Shown in pieces: positions 28,112 to 40,612 of a DNA stretch of 64,000 nucleotides. Location of the stretch: the NCBI RefSeq assembly GCF_026625605.1, contig NZ_CP113054.1:1984001-2048000 (forward strand), in the 5' to 3' direction. The position numbers were made by a program, and so were the translations under genes. The notes below the pieces were generated by a model that made no database searches, had not been told where the DNA came from, and saw only the letters and a list, made by a program, of their open reading frames with translations. Source of the stretch: Luteolibacter sp. SL250. Lineage in GTDB: Bacteria > Verrucomicrobiota > Verrucomicrobiia > Verrucomicrobiales > Akkermansiaceae. Position 1 is the first letter of the stretch; each line of letters opens with the position of its first letter.

Positions 28112-31100
28112 ATGAAGAAGCATCGATTCCTCTATCTCGCGGCGGTATTTGCCGCCAGTTGGTCCGTTCCGGCATCGGCTGAGATCCTCGTCGGTCTGGA
28201 CCCCGCCACGTCTCTCTACGACAGTGAGGGGAAGGGGATCGTCAATGACGGGAACGTGCAGCCTCCCGGCAATCCATCCGGAGTTCCGTTGATCGACAAT
28301 GCGGGAACTTATCTCCACTCCTCCGGTTTCACCTTCAACGCCCGCTTCACCCCGGCGGCCTCTGACCTGACCGGCACGAAGCTGCTGGTGGAGATCGGCG
28401 GGAACTCCAGCGGCTCCGGTATCTATTTGATCGGCGGTGTGCCGACCTTGCTGAGCAAGCAAGGCGGGCAGACCACCACCCACCCGGACAGCCTGAATGA
28501 CGCGGCGCTGCCCAGCATTGCCCTGCAGAGTGCGATCGGCGTGCTGGAGGCTGGGCTGACCTACTCCTTTTCCGCCTCATGGAACCATGCCGGGACGCTG
28601 GAACTGCGGGTGAAGCCGGACGGTCAGGATGATGACATCTTCGACTCATTCGTCATCACCGGCCTGCCGGGCAACTGGTCCGGGAATGACACGCTGAGTG
28701 TCAGAACGATGAACACCGGCAACGCGGGTGGACTGGCGCGGGACACCGCCAACGGCATCGATCCGCGCTTCAACACGAATGTTGCCCAGGTCACCAGCTT
28801 CGCCGGAGTGGTGCACCGCGCCGTGTTCTGGAATGCGAACGACGTGACACCGGCGGTGCTTTCGGAGCCGGAGATCCGGGGATTCACCATCACCCGCCTG
28901 CCATCCACCGGAAAGCTGCGCTTCCACTGGAACCTTTCCGAAGGCGGCCTGCCGAACCCGACCACGGCGGAGATCCGCGAGGGGGAAACTCCGGGCGGTG
29001 CGGTCATCCACACCATCCCGGAAGGAGCGCTGACCGGCTTCATCGATCTGGATGCGTCGTCGTCGGCGTCATTCACCCTCACCGCCACCAACGCCACGGG
29101 GACCGTCCAGGCGACCGCGGCGCCGCAGGCGGAAACCGCGCATTCCGCGGCGATCCGTGGGTCGAACCCGCTGGCGTGGTACCGTTTCAACGAGGCCGCC
29201 GGTTCGCGGCACCTGGTGGACTCCGCGGAGAACACCATCCCCAACAACGGAACGGTCCGCGGTGAGACCATCGCGGGCGGTGGCGGTGTCATCGACGGCG
29301 CAGGCGTGTTCGCGGGCAGCACCACGGTGCTGAACCGGCAGATCCTCAATCCCGGATCGGCGGATCCCGAGGTGCCGAAGGGATTCTCCGTGGAGCTCAT
29401 CGTGAAGCATTCCGCCGGGGCGACGATCGACAACGTCATCATCTCCCAGCAGGACATCAACGGCACCGGCCGCCAGATCATCTCCGTGAGGCCGGACGGC
29501 ACGCTTTTCTCCGTGCTCGGCGGGACCGGTCATGACTCCGCCGCGAAGCTGGTGGCGGATGCCTGGAACCATGTCGTTTTTGTCGTCGATCCCGACGGCG
29601 GCCAGTTCCGTTGGTATCTGAACGGAAAGCTGGCGGACACCATCACTCCTTCCGGCGGCTTCACACTGGAGGGCACGGAGGGCGGATGGGTCATCGGCTC
29701 CGCGAAAAACCTGACGGGCAACCTGTTCAAGGGACAGATCGACGAGGTGGCCGTCTTCCGCGACCTGCTGGATGATCCTGACCGGAACGGGGACCCGGCG
29801 GACTCCAGGATCTCCGGCCATTACCAGGCGTGGTACCAGCTCACGAAAGGCATCATCCACTTCAAAGGTACGGCATCCGCCGTAGTCACCGGCACCCCGC
29901 TGGATCTGCTGGCGTTCGTCGGTGCGGATGTGACCTCCGTGTCGGTGGACAACGGCGTCGGGACGCTTGCCATCGGGGCGGACCGCACCGCCACCGCTGC
30001 GGGCGTGCAGCCCACCGCCTCCACCACCTACACGCTCACCGCGACGGGTGAGGGCGGCGCGACTTACACCTCTTCCTTCGACGTCATCTACAACCAGCTC
30101 ACCCCGCCGGTGATCCTCGGCTTCGAGGCGACCTCGCTGCCTTCGCCGGATGGCGTGGAGCCTGACAAAGTGCGGCTGCACTGGGCGGCGACGGCAGGCG
30201 ACTTTCCGACCGCGGTCGCGGGAACCCTGACCTACGGCAGCGGGGGACTGCTGGAATTCACCGACCTGCGCGGCTTCCACGACATCCCGGCCGCGGAGGC
30301 GACCGGCATCAAGCTCAGGCTCACCAACCTGGTCGGCGCGGATGAACTCGACGCGGTCCCGCCCGCACCGGACACCGCCCACTCCGCGGTCATCCGCGCG
30401 GCGAGGCCCGCCGCCTGGTACCGCTTCAACGAGGGCGTTTCCTCCGGCCTGGTCGTGGACTCCGCGGGCGGAGCCGCCCCCCATGACGGGGTGCTGCGCA
30501 ACTACATCGCGGTGAACCTGGGGGCCACCGGCTTCCTCGACGGCGCGGGCACCTTCAACGCCGCCGCCGCCGTCATCACGGACCGGATCATCGATCCGAA
30601 TGACGAGGATCTCGTCGGCTTCACCGTGGAAGCCATCATCGAGACCAACCCGGGCACCGGCACCACCAACCGCGTCATCGTCGCCCAGCAGGACACTTCC
30701 CCTTTCATCGGCCGCCAGATCCTGTCAGTGGATGACACCGGCACCGTCCGCGCGAACGTCGGCGGCGGCACGACGATTTCGTCAACCGGAAAAGTCCCCG
30801 CACGTGCCTGGAGCCACCTCGTCGGCGTGGTGGATGTCACGGCGAATGTGGTGAGCTGGTACATCGACGGCCGGCCCGCCGGCACCGGAACGCCCGCGGC
30901 TTTCTTCGAGCCGTCGCAGGGCGCGTGGGTGATCGGCGCGGCGAAGGATCTCGCCGGCAGCTTCTGGCGCGGAAAGATCGACGACCTCATCATCTACGAC
31001 AGGATCCTGGACCAGACGGAGGTCCTCGCGCACCGGAACGCCTGGTGGGACCGCACCACGGGCCTGCTCCATTCCTCCGTCGCCAGCGCCACCATCAATG

Positions 31101-31531
31101 CCGGGGAGAGCACGGAGCTTTCCCTGAAGCTGGGCAAGGACATCACCTCCGTCACCATCGACAACGGAGTTGGTGCGGTGGCCATCGTGGACGGAAACGC
31201 AGTGGTATCCCTCACGCCGTCGGTGACCACCACCTACACCATCACCCTGGACGGACCGAACGATCCGGTGACCCACACCGTCACCATCACGGTCAACGGC
31301 GGAGCCTTCGCGCTGGAGATCATCTCCCACGGCATCCACGGCGGCCAGTTCACCATCCAGTTCCGGGGGGCTCCGTCCACCACCTACGCGGTGAAAGGAT
31401 CCTCCGATCTCGTTTCCTTCGGCACGGACCTGGGGACCGCGGCCACGGACACGGCGGGCAACGGCACCGCCACTATCACCCTCGATCCGGCGAAGCCCGC
31501 CGAGTTCTACCGCATCGAGACCGCCCACTGA
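28112..31531 (+). CDS. exported LamG (laminin G-like/concanavalin) domain protein
   Basis: 1139-residue secreted protein, first gene of a five-gene operon. Signal peptide FLYLAAVFAASWSVPASA. Two similar LamG-like blocks follow: about residues 350-560 (NPLAWYRFNEAAGS, GFSVELIVKHSAG, WNHVVFVVDPDGGQFRWYLN, KGQIDEVAVFRDLLD) and about 755-985 (PAAWYRFNEGVSSG, VGFTVEAIIETNPG, WSHLVGVVDVTANVVSWYID, RGKIDDLIIYDRILD). Each is followed by an Ig-like segment (SVDNGVGTLAIG and TIDNGVGAVAIV), so the protein is built from an internal duplication. Such domains bind glycans or proteins at the cell surface. The next gene starts 19 bp downstream. Confidence 0.88.
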   Translation: MKKHRFLYLAAVFAASWSVPASAEILVGLDPATSLYDSEGKGIVNDGNVQPPGNPSGVPLIDNAGTYLHSSGFTFNARFTPAASDLTGTKLLVEIGGNSSGSGIYLIGGVPTLLSKQGGQTTTHPDSLNDAALPSIALQSAIGVLEAGLTYSFSASWNHAGTLELRVKPDGQDDDIFDSFVITGLPGNWSGNDTLSVRTMNTGNAGGLARDTANGIDPRFNTNVAQVTSFAGVVHRAVFWNANDVTPAVLSEPEIRGFTITRLPSTGKLRFHWNLSEGGLPNPTTAEIREGETPGGAVIHTIPEGALTGFIDLDASSSASFTLTATNATGTVQATAAPQAETAHSAAIRGSNPLAWYRFNEAAGSRHLVDSAENTIPNNGTVRGETIAGGGGVIDGAGVFAGSTTVLNRQILNPGSADPEVPKGFSVELIVKHSAGATIDNVIISQQDINGTGRQIISVRPDGTLFSVLGGTGHDSAAKLVADAWNHVVFVVDPDGGQFRWYLNGKLADTITPSGGFTLEGTEGGWVIGSAKNLTGNLFKGQIDEVAVFRDLLDDPDRNGDPADSRISGHYQAWYQLTKGIIHFKGTASAVVTGTPLDLLAFVGADVTSVSVDNGVGTLAIGADRTATAAGVQPTASTTYTLTATGEGGATYTSSFDVIYNQLTPPVILGFEATSLPSPDGVEPDKVRLHWAATAGDFPTAVAGTLTYGSGGLLEFTDLRGFHDIPAAEATGIKLRLTNLVGADELDAVPPAPDTAHSAVIRAARPAAWYRFNEGVSSGLVVDSAGGAAPHDGVLRNYIAVNLGATGFLDGAGTFNAAAAVITDRIIDPNDEDLVGFTVEAIIETNPGTGTTNRVIVAQQDTSPFIGRQILSVDDTGTVRANVGGGTTISSTGKVPARAWSHLVGVVDVTANVVSWYIDGRPAGTGTPAAFFEPSQGAWVIGAAKDLAGSFWRGKIDDLIIYDRILDQTEVLAHRNAWWDRTTGLLHSSVASATINAGESTELSLKLGKDITSVTIDNGVGAVAIVDGNAVVSLTPSVTTTYTITLDGPNDPVTHTVTITVNGGAFALEIISHGIHGGQFTIQFRGAPSTTYAVKGSSDLVSFGTDLGTAATDTAGNGTATITLDPAKPAEFYRIETAH

Positions 31532-31550: not shown

Positions 31551-34500
31551 ATGCCATCCACCCTACACGGAACGGGACCGCGGAGAAAGCGCGGCGGGCG
31601 GGGATTCTCCCTCGTCGCGACGATCCTGATGCTGTCGCTGCTGATGCTGTTGGCGCTGGCCATGACCACGCTTTCCGCGGTGACGGTGCGCACCGCCGGG
31701 AATGACCGCGAGGTCCAGCGGGCCAGGGCGAACGCGCGGCTGGCGCTGCAGATGGCCATCGGCGAACTGCAGTCGCTGGCCGGGCAGGACCAGCGGGTGA
31801 CTGCTCCGTCGGAAGGGGAGGGCCTGGATGCCCGCCCGCACCTCACCGGCGTATGGGAGGGCTGGCGGTGGGATGGCCGCGGTGGCGCCCCGGATTGGGA
31901 GCGGGAGAAGAAGAACCGCTTCAAAGGCTGGCTCGTCTCCTCATCGGAGTACCAGGCGAACCGCAATGCGGATTTTGTGAGAACCCCTACGGAAGGCCGC
32001 ATGGTCCGGCTCGCTCCGCCGGTTGTCTCCGGTAAGCGAGCGGTGGAAGCCGGAATCGTGGAAATCGCTTCGGCCTCGCGCAAGGATGGCCGGAAAGACG
32101 GCTACGCATGGGCGGTCTTCGACCAGTCGCAGAAGATCGACATCTCCCTGCCAGCGGAGGATGAGGAGGAGAATGACTTCGCCCGCGGCATGGACCGCAT
32201 GTCCGCCGCCCATGAGCCGGGCTATGAGGCGGTGAAGGCGTTCGACTGGAAGCCGCTTTCCGAGCGCAGGGAGGAAAGGCGGAGGCTCGTCTCCCTCGGC
32301 CAGTCGCGGTTGATCGGGCTGAAGAAGGAGGATGCCTCGTTCCATGATGCGGCCGCCGGTTCCTTCGGCCTGCTCACCGACTCCGTCGGAGGTGGGTGGA
32401 AGACGGACCTGTCACAGCTTTTCCGGGAGGACAAGCTGCCCTCCAGCCACGCGGACCGCTTCCTGTATTCCGGGACAGACAGCCCGCTGGTGGCCCCACC
32501 GGCGCGGTTCCAGGGCGCGAATCCCTTTCCCTCGCCGGATCCATCCTGGGCGCTTCTTCACTCCCACTACCGTTCGTACCGGGATCTCACAGGTGGCACC
32601 AACCCATCGCACCCGGTGACGACGGCCACCGTCGTGGACCGGCCGGATCCCGCGGCCATCACCTCCACGGAGCAACTGCTCCGCCAGCCCGCGTTCAATG
32701 AACAGCAGATCGCGCCGGTCATCGCGAAGGCGCAGTTTGTCTTCAGCCTGGCCTTCGGCGTGAACCAGAAGACGCTCGACACCATGTGGGCGAACGGCGG
32801 GGCGCGGTCCACGCCCGCCAGCCAGCGGGACAACTACATCACCTGGCTGGTGATCGACCCGGTCATCGCGCTGTGGAATCCTTACAACGTCCCGCTGCAG
32901 TTCAGCGGTGCCACCATCGAACTCCACCGCGTGCCGATGGCGTTCCGCCTCTACAAGAACGGCACCCGGCTGGCGGAGAACTACACGCGCCTGACCGACG
33001 CCCACACACAGGCCGACTTCAAGAACCGTCAGAACCGCTTCTACCTGCTGAAGCTGCTGCCGGAGAAAGGCCAGGGGAGCCGGGTCATGGAACCGGGCGA
33101 GCATGTCGTCTTCACCGGCCATGAGTGGACGCTCCACGGCAGCCACCGCTACAATGTCCAGGGGCTCACCATGCGGCCGGGCTTCCATCCACCGGCGGGT
33201 GCCAGCAGCAGCAAGGACATCGGCGGGGTGACCACACAGAACCTTTTCGTCAGCCCTACAGGTGCCAGCACCGGCAGGGACTATGGAAAAACCATCCGCA
33301 CCGTAGCGGTGAAGGGTGGGGACAAGATCCAGGTGGAGGTGAAGCCGGAGCGTGCCGGTGCGGATGAACTGGCGGAGACGGGGAAACGCGAGGTCACCGG
33401 GTTCCTCAAATACTACGTCGGCATCGGCACCCGGATCCAGCGCCGCTTCATCGGCGGGATCGAGCTGGACTACGGCGACAAGGAGAAGGAGTACCTTCCC
33501 GAGTTCGGCCGGAACGAACTGCCCACCATCGTGGTGGATCCTTCGATCCCGAAGACCGCTCCCGGAAACACCGGCGTGGACCCGGACGAGGCGGGGGCGG
33601 ATGACGCCATCCGTTGGAAGGAGCCGTTCCTCATCGCCTCCTTCCAGCAGAAGACGGAGCGGGACTCGAAGTTCCCCTCCCGTTCCTGGATCAACAACAA
33701 CCCGGGGAACCTCTATGCCGCGGGCGGGCTGGACCAGACGGAGGACTTCGCCCACCACCAGTATGAATTCAAATGGGAGCCGATGACCGACTGGCCGCCG
33801 GACAGCCCGACCATCGAGCTGAGCAACGACGGCAACCGTGGCTACGGTGGATCCGGCGTCTATTCCCAGACCGGCTCGGAGTTCGCCTCCTTCTCCTCGC
33901 TGCCGCTGGAGCCCGCGCTTTCGCTGGGGCAGTTCACCCATGCTCCGCTGAATGCGGGTGGGCAGCTCCCGCTGGTGGCCCATCCGTTCGCGAACTCCTT
34001 CGCACCGGCGCTGATCCAGGCGGATGCGGTCACAGCCACCGCTGGAAGCAGGACCTACCTCGATCATTCCTACTTCGCCAACAACGCCCTGCTGGACTCC
34101 CACTTCCTTTCCGGGGCCGTGGATCATCCGGCGCGCTTCGGGGGGGCGGCATTGCACCGGGAGGCGCTGATCACCGAATTCCTCGCGGGCCGCGGCCACC
34201 TGCCGAACCTCCGGTTCGAGCGCTACACCGGGCGTGAAACCCCGTCCGCCGCCACCGACCGGCTGCTGTCCGACAAGGAGGCGCACGACCACATCGCCGC
34301 GAACCTGCTGGTGAAGGGCGCGTTCAACGTGAACTCCACGAGCGTGGCCGCATGGCAGGCGTTGCTCGCCTCCAACTTCAATGCGCCGCTGCCCCTGTCC
34401 GGCGGGGATGTCGCGGGTGGAGACGGCGTGCCGGTCTCCCGCAACGTGCCATCCGTCGGCGGCAACAACGCATCCCAGGGCGGCGGATCATCCGACCGTG

Positions 34501-35051
34501 AGAAATGGAGCGGCCACCGCCGCCTGTCGGCGGAGCAGGTCGGGGCACTCGCGGAAGCCCTGGTGGAGCAGGTGGAAAAGCGCGGGCCGTTCCTCTCGCT
34601 CGCGGAGTTCGTGAACCGCCGGCCCGGCGGGGATGAGCGACTGTCCTCCGCAGGAGCGGTCCAGGCGGCCATCGATGTGTCAGGCATCAATGATGGTATC
34701 ATCGACCGCAGCTTTGATTTCCATGTGGCGACGGGGGCGAACCAGACCGCTGGTTCCGGCAACACCGCGGATGGCGCGCCGGGCCTCATCACCCAGGCGG
34801 ACATCCTCACCCCGCTGCTGCCCCAGCTCACCGTCCGCGGAGACACCTTCGTCATCCGGACCTGCGGTGAAGCCGTGGACCGGGAGGGCCGGGTGGTCCG
34901 CGCCTGGTGCGAGGCGACCGTCCAGCGCTACCCGGACCACATCGATCCGAAGGACGACGCCTCCCTCAAGGCTTCCACGGACCTGAACAAGAAATTCGGC
35001 CGCCGGATCAGCATCGTCTCCTTCCGCTGGCTCACTCCATCCGAAATCTGA
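31551..35051 (+). CDS. Verru_Chthon cassette protein A-like giant pseudopilin
   Basis: 1166-residue protein with a type IV prepilin-like N-terminus: a basic leader ending in Gly18, then FSLVATILMLSLLMLLALAM and a long amphipathic helix (RARANARLALQMAIGELQSL). It lacks Glu at position 5 of the mature sequence, as in GspK/PilX-type minor pseudopilins. The body is large and soluble (NYITWLVIDPVIALWNPYN, EYLPEFGRNELPTIVVDPS). Near residues 993-1023, LSAEQVGALAEALVEQVEKR then GPFLSLAEFVNRR resembles the helical motif of GspK. The size and beginning match the Verru_Chthon cassette A family. The usual partner genes B-D are not adjacent. It is the second gene of the operon. Confidence 0.8.
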   Translation: MPSTLHGTGPRRKRGGRGFSLVATILMLSLLMLLALAMTTLSAVTVRTAGNDREVQRARANARLALQMAIGELQSLAGQDQRVTAPSEGEGLDARPHLTGVWEGWRWDGRGGAPDWEREKKNRFKGWLVSSSEYQANRNADFVRTPTEGRMVRLAPPVVSGKRAVEAGIVEIASASRKDGRKDGYAWAVFDQSQKIDISLPAEDEEENDFARGMDRMSAAHEPGYEAVKAFDWKPLSERREERRRLVSLGQSRLIGLKKEDASFHDAAAGSFGLLTDSVGGGWKTDLSQLFREDKLPSSHADRFLYSGTDSPLVAPPARFQGANPFPSPDPSWALLHSHYRSYRDLTGGTNPSHPVTTATVVDRPDPAAITSTEQLLRQPAFNEQQIAPVIAKAQFVFSLAFGVNQKTLDTMWANGGARSTPASQRDNYITWLVIDPVIALWNPYNVPLQFSGATIELHRVPMAFRLYKNGTRLAENYTRLTDAHTQADFKNRQNRFYLLKLLPEKGQGSRVMEPGEHVVFTGHEWTLHGSHRYNVQGLTMRPGFHPPAGASSSKDIGGVTTQNLFVSPTGASTGRDYGKTIRTVAVKGGDKIQVEVKPERAGADELAETGKREVTGFLKYYVGIGTRIQRRFIGGIELDYGDKEKEYLPEFGRNELPTIVVDPSIPKTAPGNTGVDPDEAGADDAIRWKEPFLIASFQQKTERDSKFPSRSWINNNPGNLYAAGGLDQTEDFAHHQYEFKWEPMTDWPPDSPTIELSNDGNRGYGGSGVYSQTGSEFASFSSLPLEPALSLGQFTHAPLNAGGQLPLVAHPFANSFAPALIQADAVTATAGSRTYLDHSYFANNALLDSHFLSGAVDHPARFGGAALHREALITEFLAGRGHLPNLRFERYTGRETPSAATDRLLSDKEAHDHIAANLLVKGAFNVNSTSVAAWQALLASNFNAPLPLSGGDVAGGDGVPVSRNVPSVGGNNASQGGGSSDREKWSGHRRLSAEQVGALAEALVEQVEKRGPFLSLAEFVNRRPGGDERLSSAGAVQAAIDVSGINDGIIDRSFDFHVATGANQTAGSGNTADGAPGLITQADILTPLLPQLTVRGDTFVIRTCGEAVDREGRVVRAWCEATVQRYPDHIDPKDDASLKASTDLNKKFGRRISIVSFRWLTPSEI

Positions 35052-35056
35052 ATCTT

Positions 35057-35764
35057 ATGAAACAACTGCTCCTGCTCCTCACCCTCGCTCTGCCGCTCCA
35101 GGCGGAATCCCGGAACGTCGCTGTTTCATTCTTCTGCCTCAAGTATGTCGCCGGGCAGGAGACCATCCATCTGGCGAAGGCATCCGGCTCCGAGCCGGTC
35201 CGCCTTTCCACCGCGAACATGACGGATCCGGTGACGATCCCCGTCGAGAGTGACCTGGCCGTCTTCCACCGCGCTCCGGCGGGGGACCCGAAGGCCCCGC
35301 CCGCTGCAGCCGCGAAGATCCGTATCCCGGCCACGGTGGACAAGGCGCTGATCATCCTGGTGCCGGCCGCCGCGGGCTCCGCGGAGCCTTACCAGGCGGT
35401 GCTGGTGGACCATGGCCCCCGCTTTTCCCTCGGCACCTACCGCGTCGTCAACTTCTCCCGAAAAGCCATCCGCGGCGCGGTCGGGCGCAGCTACGTGGAG
35501 GCGGCGTCAGGAGGCATGACGGACCTGGAGCTGAAGGGGGAGGCGGGCGCGGTGCAGGGCGTGCGCTTCGAGTTCCAGGACGAGGGTCGCTGGAACCGCC
35601 TGACGGAGACCCGCTGCGCCGTGCGCAAGGACCGCCGCTGGCTGCTCTGCGTCTATCAGGACCCCGTCACCCGCCGCATGAACATGAAGAGCATCCCGGA
35701 CCGCACGCTGCTGCTCCAGCCCGTCAGCGTCGAGGCATCTCCGGGTGAGACCGCCGCGAACTGA
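35057..35764 (+). CDS. small exported protein in the cassette A operon
   Basis: 235-residue protein starting 5 bp after the cassette A stop. Signal peptide MKQLLLLLTLALPLQAES. The mature part is beta-rich (VAVSFFCLKYVAGQETIHLA, PYQAVLVDHGPRFSLGTYRV, DRRWLLCVYQDPVTRR), with no recognised domain. Similar small exported proteins often accompany cassette A genes, so it may be an accessory or periplasmic partner (inference). Confidence 0.8.
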   Translation: MKQLLLLLTLALPLQAESRNVAVSFFCLKYVAGQETIHLAKASGSEPVRLSTANMTDPVTIPVESDLAVFHRAPAGDPKAPPAAAAKIRIPATVDKALIILVPAAAGSAEPYQAVLVDHGPRFSLGTYRVVNFSRKAIRGAVGRSYVEAASGGMTDLELKGEAGAVQGVRFEFQDEGRWNRLTETRCAVRKDRRWLLCVYQDPVTRRMNMKSIPDRTLLLQPVSVEASPGETAAN

Positions 35765-35792: not shown

Positions 35793-38372
35793 ATGAAGCG
35801 CCTGCTCATCCCGCTGGCTGCGGTGCTGCCTGCCGCCGTCGTCCATGCCTCGACGGATCCCGCGAAGCTCGAGTTCTTCGAGAAACGCATCCGTCCGATC
35901 CTCTCGGAGAACTGCTACAGCTGCCACGCCGCGGATACGAAGGCGGCGGGCGGCCTGCGGGTGGATGACCTGAACGGACTCCTCCAGGGAGGGGACGGCG
36001 GTGCCGCCGTCATCCGTGGGGATGCGAAGGGGAGCGCCCTCATCCGGCGCATCCGCCATGCGGAGGAACGGCGGCGCATGCCGAAGGACAGCGACGCGCT
36101 GGACGAGGCGGAGATCGCGGATCTGGAGAAATGGATCGACGACGGCGCGGTATGGCCGGCGGAGGAGATTCCTTCATACATCGGCAAGGACCGCACGAAG
36201 TACGAAAACCTCCGTAGATCCCACTGGGCCTGGCAGCCGCTCACGACGCCGACCACTCCAGCGGTGAAGGACGCCGCATGGCCGGCGGGGGAGGTGGACC
36301 GTTTCATCCTCGCGGAGCTGGAGGGTAGGGGGCTGTCACCCGTAGGGGATGCGGACCGTGCCACGCTCTTGCGCCGCGTGACTCATGACCTCACCGGCCT
36401 GCCGCCATCCCCGGAGGAGTTGCGCGCCTTCACGGAGGATGCCGCTACGGACGCGTATGAAAATGCGGTGGACCGCCTGCTTGCATCTCCTGCCTTCGGC
36501 GAGCGCTGGGGGCGGCATTGGCTGGACGTGGCGCGCTACGGCGAATCGACCGGACCGTCACGCAACATCCCTTATCCCCATGCGTGGAAGTACCGGGACT
36601 ATGTGATCGACTCCGTTTCCCGGGATGTCCCGTTCGACCGCTTCATCCGCGAGCAGATCGCGGGGGATCTGCTTCCCGGGGAGGATGGAAAGGAGCGCGA
36701 CCGCCTGCTCACGGCGACGGGCTTCCTCGCGCTCGGCGTGAAGGACGTGAACCAGCGTTTCAAGATCCGCTTCCAGATGGACAATGTCGATGAACAGATC
36801 GATACCGTGACCCGCTCCGTGCTCGGCCTCACGGTGAGCTGCGCCCGCTGCCATGACCACAAGACGGATCCGGTGCCGACGACGGAGTATTACTCGCTGG
36901 CGGGCATCTTCACCAGCACGGAGGACGGCGCGGGCGTCCGCAACAAGATGGGCGGTGGCGGCCTGGACTACTACGATGGGGAGAAGCTGGTCCGCCTTTC
37001 CACCGATAACGCCCCTCCGCCCGATCCCGTGAAGGCGGCGGAACTCCGGAGGAAAGCGGATGAGGCGAAGAAGGAATGGGATGAAATCCGTGGCACGCCG
37101 GAGGGCCTGAAGCGCAACGCCAACGGCCAGCCCGTCCAGCGTGCCTACCGGCTACGGTATGAAAAAGCACAGGCGGATCTCATGGACCTCACCGACCCCG
37201 CCGCGCGCGGCCTGGCGGTCCACGGGGTCCGGGAGGCGGCACAGGTTGCGGACACCCAGGTGCGGATCCGTGGCGAGGCGGAGCGCCTCGGGCCGGAGGT
37301 GCCGCGTGGCTTCCCACAGATCTTCGCGGTGCCCGGCGCGCCGGCCATCGATCCCGCGCAGAGCGGACGCCTGCAGCTCGCGGAGTGGCTCACCCATCCG
37401 GGGAATCCGCTCACGCCGCGAGTGGCGGTGAACCGGATCTGGAAGCACCTCTTCGGTGAAGGGCTGGTCACCACGGTGGACAACTTCGGCGTGACGGGTG
37501 ACACACCTTCCCATCCGGAACTGCTCGATCATCTTGCCAACCGCTTCGTCGCCGGTGGCTGGTCGGTGAAGAAGACCATCCGCGAGCTGGTCCTGAGCCG
37601 CACCTACCGCCTCGGCGGTGACGCCCCCGCCAATCTGGTTGGAGTCGATCCAGCGAACCGTCTGCTATGGCGGCATGCTCCGCGCCGCATGAGCGCGGAG
37701 GAGATCCGCGACACCATCCTGGCCGTCTCCGGAAAGCTCGACCGCCAGCCGCCGTCCGGCGCTCCCGTGGAAAAGCTGAAGATGATCGAGATGCGCGACA
37801 ACGGCCAGGAAGCGGCCACCGTCCACCGGAACGCGAACACTTCGCTGGGCCGCAGTGTCTATCTGCCGCTGCTCCGCGGTGTCACGCCGCGCGCGCTGGA
37901 GGCGTTCGATCCGGTGGGCCAGACGCTCGTCTCCGGCAGGCGTGAGGAGACCACGGTGCCGTCGCAGGCTCTGTTCATGCTGAACTCCTCCTTTGTCCGC
38001 GGACAGGCGCTGGCGCTTGCCGGTGGGCTGGTGGCAGGGGACGTGTCCGCGGAGGAACGCGTGCGCTCGGTCTTCCTCGGTGCGTATGGCCGTGAGCCTC
38101 AGAATGGTGAGATCTCCGCGGCGCTGGCGTTGCTCGATGAGTTCGAAAACGCACCCCATGAGACACTGCAGGCCCGGGCCGATGTGCAGGCACCGTCCGA
38201 TGCGGACCGCCCCATCGTCGCGGATGCCCAGGCCGCGAATCCGGACGACATCCCGCGGGACGACCAGACCACTGCCGAAGAGGTGGTGGAGGCTGGCGAC
38301 GCCCGCACCGCCGCGTGGATGACCTTTGTCCAAGGCGTCTTTGCCTCAGCTGAGTTCCGCTTCGTCCGTTGA
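35793..38372 (+). CDS. PSD1/planctomycete cytochrome c domain protein (DUF1549-DUF1553)
   Basis: 859-residue exported protein. After the signal peptide (LLIPLAAVLPAAVVHA) comes a planctomycete-type cytochrome c domain with a heme-binding CYSCH (Cys41, Cys44, His45). Next is DUF1549 (about 160-360; DRFILAELEGRGLSP, DLTGLPPSPEELRAF, FGERWGRHWLDVARYGES), which holds a second CxxCH (CARCHDHKTDP), and DUF1553 (about 560-830; GNPLTPRVAVNRIWKHLFGE, RRMSAEEIRDTILAVSGKLD). These genes typically pair with DUF1501 genes, as here 23 bp downstream. Their biochemical role is not established; a periplasmic redox function is likely from the heme motifs. Confidence 0.92.
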   Translation: MKRLLIPLAAVLPAAVVHASTDPAKLEFFEKRIRPILSENCYSCHAADTKAAGGLRVDDLNGLLQGGDGGAAVIRGDAKGSALIRRIRHAEERRRMPKDSDALDEAEIADLEKWIDDGAVWPAEEIPSYIGKDRTKYENLRRSHWAWQPLTTPTTPAVKDAAWPAGEVDRFILAELEGRGLSPVGDADRATLLRRVTHDLTGLPPSPEELRAFTEDAATDAYENAVDRLLASPAFGERWGRHWLDVARYGESTGPSRNIPYPHAWKYRDYVIDSVSRDVPFDRFIREQIAGDLLPGEDGKERDRLLTATGFLALGVKDVNQRFKIRFQMDNVDEQIDTVTRSVLGLTVSCARCHDHKTDPVPTTEYYSLAGIFTSTEDGAGVRNKMGGGGLDYYDGEKLVRLSTDNAPPPDPVKAAELRRKADEAKKEWDEIRGTPEGLKRNANGQPVQRAYRLRYEKAQADLMDLTDPAARGLAVHGVREAAQVADTQVRIRGEAERLGPEVPRGFPQIFAVPGAPAIDPAQSGRLQLAEWLTHPGNPLTPRVAVNRIWKHLFGEGLVTTVDNFGVTGDTPSHPELLDHLANRFVAGGWSVKKTIRELVLSRTYRLGGDAPANLVGVDPANRLLWRHAPRRMSAEEIRDTILAVSGKLDRQPPSGAPVEKLKMIEMRDNGQEAATVHRNANTSLGRSVYLPLLRGVTPRALEAFDPVGQTLVSGRREETTVPSQALFMLNSSFVRGQALALAGGLVAGDVSAEERVRSVFLGAYGREPQNGEISAALALLDEFENAPHETLQARADVQAPSDADRPIVADAQAANPDDIPRDDQTTAEEVVEAGDARTAAWMTFVQGVFASAEFRFVR

Positions 38373-38395
38373 AAACCTCTTTGGAAATCCATCCC

Positions 38396-39760
38396 ATGAA
38401 TCCCTATTCCCAGTTCTCCCGCAGATCCGTTCTCCGTTCCGCCGGCGCGGGTTTCGGATATTTCGCCCTCGCCGGATTGCTCGGCAAGGACGCTCTCCGC
38501 GCCGCACCCGCACCGGTGAATCCGCTCGCGCCGAAGAAGCCCCATTTCGAACCGAAGGCGAAGCGCATCATTTTTATCTTCATGGAGGGCGCGATGTCCG
38601 GGGTCGATACCATCGACTACAAGCCCGAGCTCCAGAAAAGCGACGGCAAGACATCCCCCGGCGGTGGCAAGCTGGTAGCGTCGAAGTTCGGCTTCAAGCA
38701 ATACGGCGAGACCGGGACGTGGTTCTCCGACCTGCTGCCGAACATCGCCTCCCACGCGGACAAGATGTGCTGGCTGCGCGGCCTCCACACGGACACCCCG
38801 GCCCACCCGCAGGCGGTGGTCCAGCTCCATACAGGCAGTGCGAACGCCGCGCTCACCCGGCCCAGCATGGGCTCGTGGTTGCTCTACGGGCTGGGCACGG
38901 ATAATGCGGACCTGCCCGGCTACATCACCATCAACCCATCGCCGAACTTCGGTGGCGCGGTGAACTATGGCAGCGCCTTCCTGCCCGCCCACTTTCAGGG
39001 CACCCGCATCACGGATCAGGGGTTCATGGCGAACCTGAAGGCTGCCGCCGTGGCGGAACGCCAGCGGAAGCAGCTCGATTTCATCCAGTCCCTCAACCGT
39101 GGCTATGCCGCCACTCCCGGCGCGCCGGATCCGGTCGATGGCATCATCGCCTCCTACGAACTGGGCTTCCGCATGCAGGACAAAGTGCCCGCCCTGCTGG
39201 ACATCTCAAAGGAGCCGGAACACGTGAAGGAAGCCTACGGCATCAAGGACGGTCCTGCGGGTGCCTTCGCCCGCCAGTGCCTCATGGTCCGCCGTCTCAG
39301 CGAGGCGGGCGTGCGCTTCGTCGAGATCTGCCAGCCGGGTTGGGACCACCACAACAACCTGCACAAGGGGCTGATCGAGCGGACCTCGAACGTGGACAAA
39401 CCCACGGCCGCGCTGCTGGAGGACCTGGACCAGCGCGGGCTGCTGGAGGACACGCTGGTCCTGTTCGGATCGGAGTTCGGCCGCCAGCCCGCGGCACAGG
39501 GCCAGGACGGGCGCGACCACAACATCACCGGCTACTCCATGTTCCTCGCCGGTGCCGGCGTGAAGAAAGGCTACACCCACGGAGCCACGGATGAACTCGG
39601 CATCAAGGCCATCGACGGCCGCATGCACACCAACGACCTCCACGCCACGCTGCTCGCGCTGATGGGCCTCGATCATGAGGAACTGACCTACCGCTACGCG
39701 GGCCGCGACTTCCGGTTGACGGATGTGGCAGGCAAGGTCGCGCGCGAGATCTTCGCCTAA
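38396..39760 (+). CDS. DUF1501 domain protein with Tat signal
   Basis: 454-residue protein with a twin-arginine signal (SRRSVLRSAGAGFGYFALAG), so it is exported folded. The DUF1501 body has an alkaline-phosphatase/sulfatase-like layout: IIFIFMEGAMSGVDTIDYKP, DLLPNIASHADKMCWLRGLH, FVEICQPGWDHHNNLHKGL, VLFGSEFGRQPAAQGQDGRD and the C-terminal GIKAIDGRMHTNDLHATLL. Partner of the PSD1 protein in many Planctomycetes and Verrucomicrobia. The Ser and His/Asp metal-type residues are present but no reaction is proven. It ends the operon; its TAA is the first base triplet of repeat copy B, with the IS element 16 bp further on. Confidence 0.92.
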   Translation: MNPYSQFSRRSVLRSAGAGFGYFALAGLLGKDALRAAPAPVNPLAPKKPHFEPKAKRIIFIFMEGAMSGVDTIDYKPELQKSDGKTSPGGGKLVASKFGFKQYGETGTWFSDLLPNIASHADKMCWLRGLHTDTPAHPQAVVQLHTGSANAALTRPSMGSWLLYGLGTDNADLPGYITINPSPNFGGAVNYGSAFLPAHFQGTRITDQGFMANLKAAAVAERQRKQLDFIQSLNRGYAATPGAPDPVDGIIASYELGFRMQDKVPALLDISKEPEHVKEAYGIKDGPAGAFARQCLMVRRLSEAGVRFVEICQPGWDHHNNLHKGLIERTSNVDKPTAALLEDLDQRGLLEDTLVLFGSEFGRQPAAQGQDGRDHNITGYSMFLAGAGVKKGYTHGATDELGIKAIDGRMHTNDLHATLLALMGLDHEELTYRYAGRDFRLTDVAGKVAREIFA

Positions 39761-39811: not shown

Positions 39812-40612
39812 TCATTTCTGTCTCTGGAATCGGGCTTCGAATTGGTTGGGACTGAGGTATCCGATCGACGAATGGAGCCGCCTCGGATTGTAGAAGGCAT
39901 CGATGTAGCTGAAGATCTTCTGCCGCGCCTCATCCAGATTCCTGAAGGTTTCCTCCTCCGCCATTTCCGCTTTGAGGGTACCCATGAAGGATTCGGTCCT
40001 GGCGTTGTCGTAGGGATTGGCCAGCCGCGACATGCTCTGTCGCAGGCCTGATCCGGCAAGCATCGCCCTGAACGCGGTGCTCGAATACTGGCTGCCCCGG
40101 TCGCTGTGGAAAATGGTGGAAACGATCTTCCTGCGGCTCTGGAGCGCCTGCCGCAGGGCATCGGTGACCAACGCGCGGTCGATGGAGCGTGACAGGCTCC
40201 AGCCGATGATCCGGCGTGACCACAGGTCGATGACCACGGCGAGGTAGAGCCAACCCTCACGGCTCGGGATTAAGGTGATGTCCCCGGCCCAGACCTGGTC
40301 GGGAGCCTGGGGTGGCGGCAGTTTGGCAAGCAGGTTGGCACAGGGATGGGAGGCCTTGCCATCGCTGGTCTTCGGGGTGAAGCGCCGGCGCTGGATGGCG
40401 TGGAGACCTTGCCGGCGCATCATCCTGCGCGCCCGCTGCCAGCCGCAGGAGACGCCACGATTGGCCAATTCGCAGGCGATCCGGCGGTAGCCGTAGCAGC
40501 GGCGGTTGGCGTGGAAGATGGTGCTGATGAGGGCGGCGAGTTCCTGATCCGGCCAGGGTTGCGCGGGAGGACGAGGCTTGTGGTGATAGGTGCTGCGCGG
40601 CAAACCCAGCAC
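39812..40612 (-). CDS. IS3-family transposase OrfB (DDE integrase domain)
   Basis: 266-residue frame beginning at a GTG, although the natural product is probably the OrfAB fusion entered by -1 frameshifting near 40711. It has an HTH_21-like start (RRCYGYRRIACELANRG) and an rve/DDE catalytic core with Asp in VWAGDITLI, Asp in TIFHSDRGSQYSS and Glu in NARTESFMGTLK, the full DDE triad. The C-terminus YNPRRLHSSIGYLSPNQFE is typical of IS3. Catalyses copy-paste transposition of the flanking element. Confidence 0.95.
   Translation of the reverse strand: MLGLPRSTYHHKPRPPAQPWPDQELAALISTIFHANRRCYGYRRIACELANRGVSCGWQRARRMMRRQGLHAIQRRRFTPKTSDGKASHPCANLLAKLPPPQAPDQVWAGDITLIPSREGWLYLAVVIDLWSRRIIGWSLSRSIDRALVTDALRQALQSRRKIVSTIFHSDRGSQYSSTAFRAMLAGSGLRQSMSRLANPYDNARTESFMGTLKAEMAEEETFRNLDEARQKIFSYIDAFYNPRRLHSSIGYLSPNQFEARFQRQK

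Follow-up and report, generated by a model that had tools for sequence, protein, structure and literature searches.

The gene at positions 31551-35051 of the window, the 64,000-nucleotide stretch of Luteolibacter sp. SL250 DNA analyzed here, encodes a giant prepilin that is very probably of the GspK type. The explanation that we favor, and consider somewhat probable, is that the protein is a GspK-like tip pseudopilin seated on a shared base, for which we infer the processing, the place at the tip, the docking, the exchange, and the ligand. The giant would be ordinary in kind, as a modular type IV filament subunit; what is unusual is its scale, its copy number, its partner, and its detachment from the base.

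The giant has a prepilin N terminus without Glu5

Positions 31551-35051 (+ strand, as are all features of the window given below unless stated otherwise) form a single open frame of 1166 aa, with a Shine-Dalgarno-like GGAAAG ahead of the ATG. The translation begins with a class III prepilin leader (aa 1 to 18; 31551..31604), in which a basic RRKRGGRG leads into Gly18-Phe19-Ser-Leu-Val-Ala23 and an uncharged hydrophobic stretch; the leader ends in Gly18, and the +5 residue is Ala23 rather than Glu. The alpha-1 helix (aa 19 to 77; 31605..31781) is indicated by the AlphaFold2 model, the match to NF037980, and sequence identity. The model, built with 66 aligned sequences (mean pLDDT, 79; pTM, 0.85), contains a single helix at aa 20 to 77, as for pilin alpha-1. 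Conservation was assessed in 66 aligned full-length Verrucomicrobiota members that are 25 to 31% identical to the window giant, and mean identity to the window protein over aa 19 to 77 was 45%. Gly at -1 occurred in 66/66 members, Phe at +1 and Leu at +3 in 65/66 each, and the +5 residue was Val, Ile, Ala, or Leu in all of them and Glu in none (0/66). Given this conservation of G-1, F+1, and L+3 and the absence of Glu at +5, the prepilin site is not a chance resemblance. A leader ending in Gly18, an FSLV-type site, and Ala at +5 had been described in an earlier, sequence-only reading of this DNA and were confirmed by the frame and the alignment; the prepilin helix that it proposed was recovered by AlphaFold2.

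Conserved ends flank a variable insert

Behind the helix, the N-terminal part of the pilin-like module (aa 81 to 290; 31791..32420; 23% identity among giants) carries a YAW(W)V.DE..K block, which reads YAWAVFDQSQK in the window giant and is common to the giants and members of TIGR02600 (hhalign P, 5e-5). A variable insert of low identity follows (aa 291 to 785; 32421..33905). It measures 377 to 582 aa among the 66 giants, typically about 490 aa, and is absent from seven short relatives. The C-terminal part of the module (aa 786 to 1166; 33906..35048) is modeled by AlphaFold2 as helices and then strands (1099-1109, 1115-1130, and 1151-1161) and holds collinear GspK matches. Within it lie the GAFNVNSTSVAAW block (aa 923 to 935; 34317..34355), the RGPFLSLAEFVNRR block (aa 1011 to 1024; 34581..34622), and the VRGDTFVIRT block (aa 1095 to 1104; 34833..34862). 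The RGPFLSLAEFVNRR block corresponds to the segment that the sequence-only reading had likened to a helical segment of GspK and placed at residues 993 to 1023; this segment, VGALAEALVEQVEKR-GPFLSLAEFVN, lies at about 997 to 1022 and belongs to the best-conserved parts of the protein (mean identity over aa 991 to 1050, 49%). Mean identity to the window giant is 45 to 52% for the helix and for the blocks conserved toward the C terminus, compared with 19 to 27% between conserved stretches and 14 to 15% in aa 291 to 780.

The large extra region anticipated from the sequence was thus found, as a big insert inside the pilin frame. Judged from these sequence patterns, the giant reads as a scaffold made from the two ends with a variable head made from the middle. 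Both ends are confident in the AlphaFold2 model and common to insert-free and insert-bearing relatives, and no pilin-fold match of the model was significant. Weak Foldseek matches were to jelly-roll and carbohydrate-binding domains (CBM35 and CBM6), and we take these matches of the model as a hint only.

The giants are probable remote relatives of GspK

The top NCBIfam match of the giant was GspK (NF037980; E, 1.3e-4; 21.6 bits over aa 17 to 84 only, against a curated cutoff of 130 bits), followed by Verru_Chthon_A (TIGR02600; E, 2.8e-3; 15.6 bits over aa 18 to 79, against a cutoff of 332.3 bits). The sole Pfam match was PilX_N (PF14341; E, 0.055; 13.9 bits, against a gathering score of 25.5). 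The protein had been labeled as GspK/PilX type: GspK is indeed the nearest curated family, and neither the PilX label nor formal GspK membership can be kept. In profile-profile comparison, the N-helix of the giants matched GspK (P, 1e-6) and Verru_Chthon_A (P, 6e-13), the latter with two further blocks in common. With the helix removed, two collinear blocks were still common to the giants and GspK. GspK INVNTAS pairs with FNVNSTS of the giants (GAFNVNSTSVAAW in the window), and GspK S..F.RV.S.GE pairs with VRSDTF.IRAYGE (the VRGDTFVIRT block in the window). This collinear pair scored 58.7, whereas the best of 300 column shuffles reached 40.3 (0/300 as good), and the C-terminal hhalign probabilities against GspK were low when taken singly. 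The profile comparison suggested by the sequence-only reading leaned toward GspK, both in the helix and in the order of the C-terminal blocks. On these profiles, homology between the giants and GspK is likely and remote.

A Foldseek search of the giant's model against 350,542 PDB chains placed GspK chains at ranks 3, 11, 26, and 33 (3ci0_K at rank 3 and 5vtm_X at rank 11; also 9a1f_T and 6utu_C), with 5vtm_X having the highest probability among the matches listed, and none of the GspK chains was significant (best E, 0.14). A PDB sequence-profile search for GspK relatives returned none, its sole match being D-ornithine aminomutase (E, 0.54), which we took as chance. The GAE..YY motif of the GspK alpha-domain is absent from the window giant, and the pattern GAE..Y/F matches 4/66 giants; GAE and one Tyr are invariant in seven aligned GspK proteins. 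The same genome encodes a canonical 311-aa GspK (L222:8446-9381) in a T2SS operon (L222:7062-14395, at about 4.575 to 4.582 Mb) with H/I-, J-, K-, and L-like genes and the secretin GspD. This GspK also scores below the NF037980 cutoff, yet it reaches 67 over aa 9 to 242. The window giant lies outside the operon, and no gene for a prepilin of the Glu5 type occurs within 6 kb of it. We did not file the giant as a GspK because GAE..YY is missing and a canonical, separate GspK sits in the T2SS operon, and its score is far below the family cutoff. For these comparisons a hand-made GspK profile was used as the marker, since several PF03934 matches in this search were another, Tex-like HhH protein; PF03934 was rejected as a marker.

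Compared with GspK/XcpX (NF037980, PF03934; PDB 3CI0 and 5VTM), the giants share a prepilin leader without Glu5, a long N-helix, INVNTA-like and then S..F.V..GE blocks, and short relatives that stand last in a pseudopilin cassette. They differ in their score, in the missing GAE..YY, in the insert of about 490 aa, in being multicopy, in having a partner gene, and in sharing their genome with a true GspK. With Verru_Chthon A (TIGR02600), the giants have in common the N-helix profile (P, 6e-13), the YAWWV.DE..K and L..RSDTF.I blocks, a similar length, and related B, C, and D proteins (TIGR02598, TIGR02599, and TIGR02596, respectively), whereas the middle of the giants is not alignable and most of the giants here stand apart from B-C-D and have the partner instead. 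Paralogue L010 adjoins a C-type gene, and another family has the full cassette. Membership in TIGR02600 was rejected on score (15.6 versus 332.3 bits); the giants of the window's genome score 15 to 28 bits against this model, no match exceeded the cutoff anywhere in that genome, and no B, C, or D genes lie near the window giant. The protein had also been called a cassette A protein, and of this label the homology to TIGR02600 stands, while the low score and the lack of a Glu5-type prepilin within 6 kb speak against it. Our literature search found no paper mentioning "Verru_Chthon."

Insert-free relatives occupy the GspK slot and lack the partner gene

The seven short relatives (411 to 446 aa; about 405 aa when mature) have no insert, all belong to one family of the class, and form the last gene of pseudopilin cassettes, i.e., the GspK slot. 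At L124, genes with GspG-, GspH/XpsH-, B/XpsI-, and C-type matches, in this order, are followed by the short member. Four insert-bearing members of the same family (962 to 1094 aa) also stand behind prepilin genes.

In the window, a partner gene for a 235-aa secreted tandem beta-sandwich protein (35057..35764) begins 5 bp past the giant's stop. The signal peptide was recognized by eye, neither Pfam nor NCBIfam gave a match, and the AlphaFold2 model is a confident tandem beta-sandwich (pLDDT, 89). Foldseek matched it significantly to the PepT1/PepT2 extracellular domain (E, 7e-9), a likeness of the model that indicates a fold class and implies no function. The partner is directly downstream in 95 of the 130 members with room for it, the 35 without a partner call including some lost to ORF calling. 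Conversely, the 23 partner genes listed for three genomes all follow a giant: 21 do so immediately, and the other 2 are second copies in tandem. The partner accompanies the insert, not the pilin module, given that it stands behind 4/4 insert-bearing cassette members and 0/7 insert-free ones, an association that comes from one family and small numbers. Across 54 giant-partner pairs, partner distances correlated with insert distances (rho, 0.39) and core distances (0.22); the partner-insert partial correlation beyond core distances was 0.37, which was reached in 0/1000 permutations of a Mantel-type test that removes shared ancestry only partly. No partner was found behind the giants of a small-genome genus, g2 (L136, L137, and L107-L121), which belongs to the same family as the window's genome and has genomes of 2.2 to 3.3 Mb and insert-bearing giants. 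One of the four giants in the window's genome also has no adjacent partner. This giant is preceded by the gene for a DNRLRE/LamG protein of 1850 aa, upstream of which lies a weak partner-like gene on the opposite strand (L009:17449-18381; E, 5e-11).

Giants outnumber the full-length J-type genes found and have no fixed neighbor upstream

The window's genome encodes a prepilin peptidase as well as ATPases of the GspE/PilB type (several of the PilB/PilT family, T2SSE). It contains four giants and two C-type (J-like) genes of full length. The first of these C genes adjoins giant paralogue L010; the second belongs to a D-B-C cassette in which no A gene occurs over the stretch read. This triplet lies at G000 C1:4293559-4295956 (L259:5559-7956), and its C protein shares 43% identity with the one beside L010. 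G198 has 12 giants and 1 full-length C gene, G203 has 10 giants plus a fragment and 1 C gene, and G021 has 3 giants and 1 C gene. Overall, there are 3 to 12 giants per genome versus one or two J-type base subunits of full length, the C counts being lower bounds because C genes that are too divergent would escape the search. In G198, G203, G212, and G021, the C gene is part of a D-B-C triplet, and neither an A gene nor a partner gene occurs within the 10 to 11 kb read; D-B-C without A was found in five genomes. In contrast, G078 has Verru_Chthon_A proteins above the cutoff; its partial C-type matches are many, and at least two of these adjoin A genes. Near most giant copies there is no Glu5-type pilin gene. 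A profile of the four paralogues matched 63 of 195 sampled genomes. One giant, L040, is on a 3.2-kb contig labeled Deltaproteobacteria (MAG UBA12015), which is perhaps misplaced, since the other titled matches are Verrucomicrobiota.

Upstream of the window giant by 19 bp is a gene for a secreted 1139-aa LamG (Laminin_G_3) protein (28112..31531; Pfam E, 1e-34), and directly past the partner are a PSCyt1/DUF1549/DUF1553 (cytochrome) gene and then a DUF1501 gene (35793-39760). The LamG, giant, partner, cytochrome/DUF1553, and DUF1501 genes likely form one transcription unit, given that all are on the + strand and that the LamG spacing is 19 bp. An IS3-type transposase-like ORF, recognized by eye, lies next to the cluster (39812-40612, - strand). 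The LamG gene is not conserved beside other giants. We rejected a pairing of giant and LamG cargo, since unrelated singletons prevail upstream of giants and a single cluster, of six genes, was formed. We likewise rejected a link to sulfatases or to the cytochrome/DUF1553 and DUF1501 genes downstream, none of which is a fixed neighbor.

Discussion

We propose that prepilin peptidase would cut the giant at Gly18/Phe19 and that the protein, without Glu5, would become the first (top) subunit of a type IV filament. It would dock on the H-I-J-type minor pseudopilin complex formed by D-B-C, a step that we infer from the gene order in another family and from the copy numbers. The insert of about 490 aa would then be located at the tip, where it would bind a ligand or exported cargo, and the secreted beta-sandwich partner would work with it. 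The giants could be exchangeable tips for one base, beside a T2SS with an ordinary GspK. We read them in this way because four giants are set against two C genes, one of which is in a D-B-C cassette without a K/A gene. The simplest reading of the copy numbers is that each base complex takes several K-type tips interchangeably, and we offer exchangeable tips on a shared base as a tentative idea, rather less than probable. A fuller version, "one base, many tips," in which one or two D-B-C complexes serve several to a dozen scattered giants with their own heads and usually a coevolving partner, and in which the cell, through expression of a different tip, changes what its type IV filament binds or exports, is plausible and falls a little short of probable.

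We considered that the giants could instead be T2SS cargo receptors that replace or supplement GspK at the pseudopilus tip, each for one class of exoprotein and with the partner as a periplasmic adaptor. The GspK-type module would suit this role, as would the T2SS operon in the same genome, the secreted LamG protein encoded 19 bp upstream in the window, and the DNRLRE/LamG protein just upstream of the L009 giant; the Pseudomonas aeruginosa tip complex has been described as critical for secretion-substrate binding (PMC6211770). This alternative is unlikely, given that no cargo gene is conserved among mostly unrelated upstream neighbors, that the T2SS has its own GspK, and that the K-slot relatives sit in separate cassettes.

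Large modules on pilins have precedents. Thermus ComZ has a pilin module with GspK as its nearest fold and a large domain, a DNA-binding beta-solenoid, inserted in the pilin sheet; it pairs with the pilin PilA2 and has been proposed as a tip receptor (PMC6561018). The giant likewise has a GspK-like pilin module that bears a large insert, and it differs in its insert, in its larger size, and in its secreted beta-sandwich partner. This common design (PMC6561018), the several PilB/PilT-family ATPases (T2SSE), and the weak Foldseek matches to jelly-roll domains, CBM35, and CBM6 would be consistent with a ComZ-like adhesin or receptor at the tip of a type IV pilus. We regard such a role as quite improbable, since PilX_N scored below its cutoff, no beta-solenoid was among the Foldseek matches listed, and the cassettes are nearer to T2SS-type pseudopilins (GspG/H) than to T4a minor pilins. 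In Streptococcus sanguinis PilB, also a modular pilin, a bulky functional module thought to be at the filament tip is placed after the pilin part (PMC8179133), whereas the giant carries its bulky module inside the pilin module and has no Glu5. A survey of modular pilins used the IPR012902 leader motif, and its most extreme case had 860 residues (PMC8179133); because the giants have no Glu5, they would probably escape pilin surveys that rely on the usual leader motif. An expansion of pseudopilins in Verrucomicrobiota has been reported for PulG-like proteins, with 67 copies in one genome (PMC13274419), and mentioned in general (PMC12487129). That the giant is a large exoprotein using a pilin-like N terminus merely as a membrane anchor, and no filament subunit, is very improbable: its very large size and the lack of a Glu5-type pilin gene near most copies would fit, whereas the conserved G-1 (66/66) and F+1 (65/66), the C-terminal blocks of the GspK type, and short forms within cassettes that amount to hardly more than a pilin module argue against it.

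In summary, we favor a GspK-like tip pseudopilin on a shared base. GspK is a small protein, present once per secretion system, and is thought to cap the bacterial secretion piston. What is new here are the insert-free relatives in the K slot, the partner linked to the insert, and the many giants set against one or two J-type subunits. Across Verrucomicrobiota, the GspK-like scaffold is a multicopy carrier of a large variable head, and its dedicated partner gene escapes Pfam and NCBIfam. If the tips are exchangeable, this family would show how one type IV machine serves many ligands or cargos.
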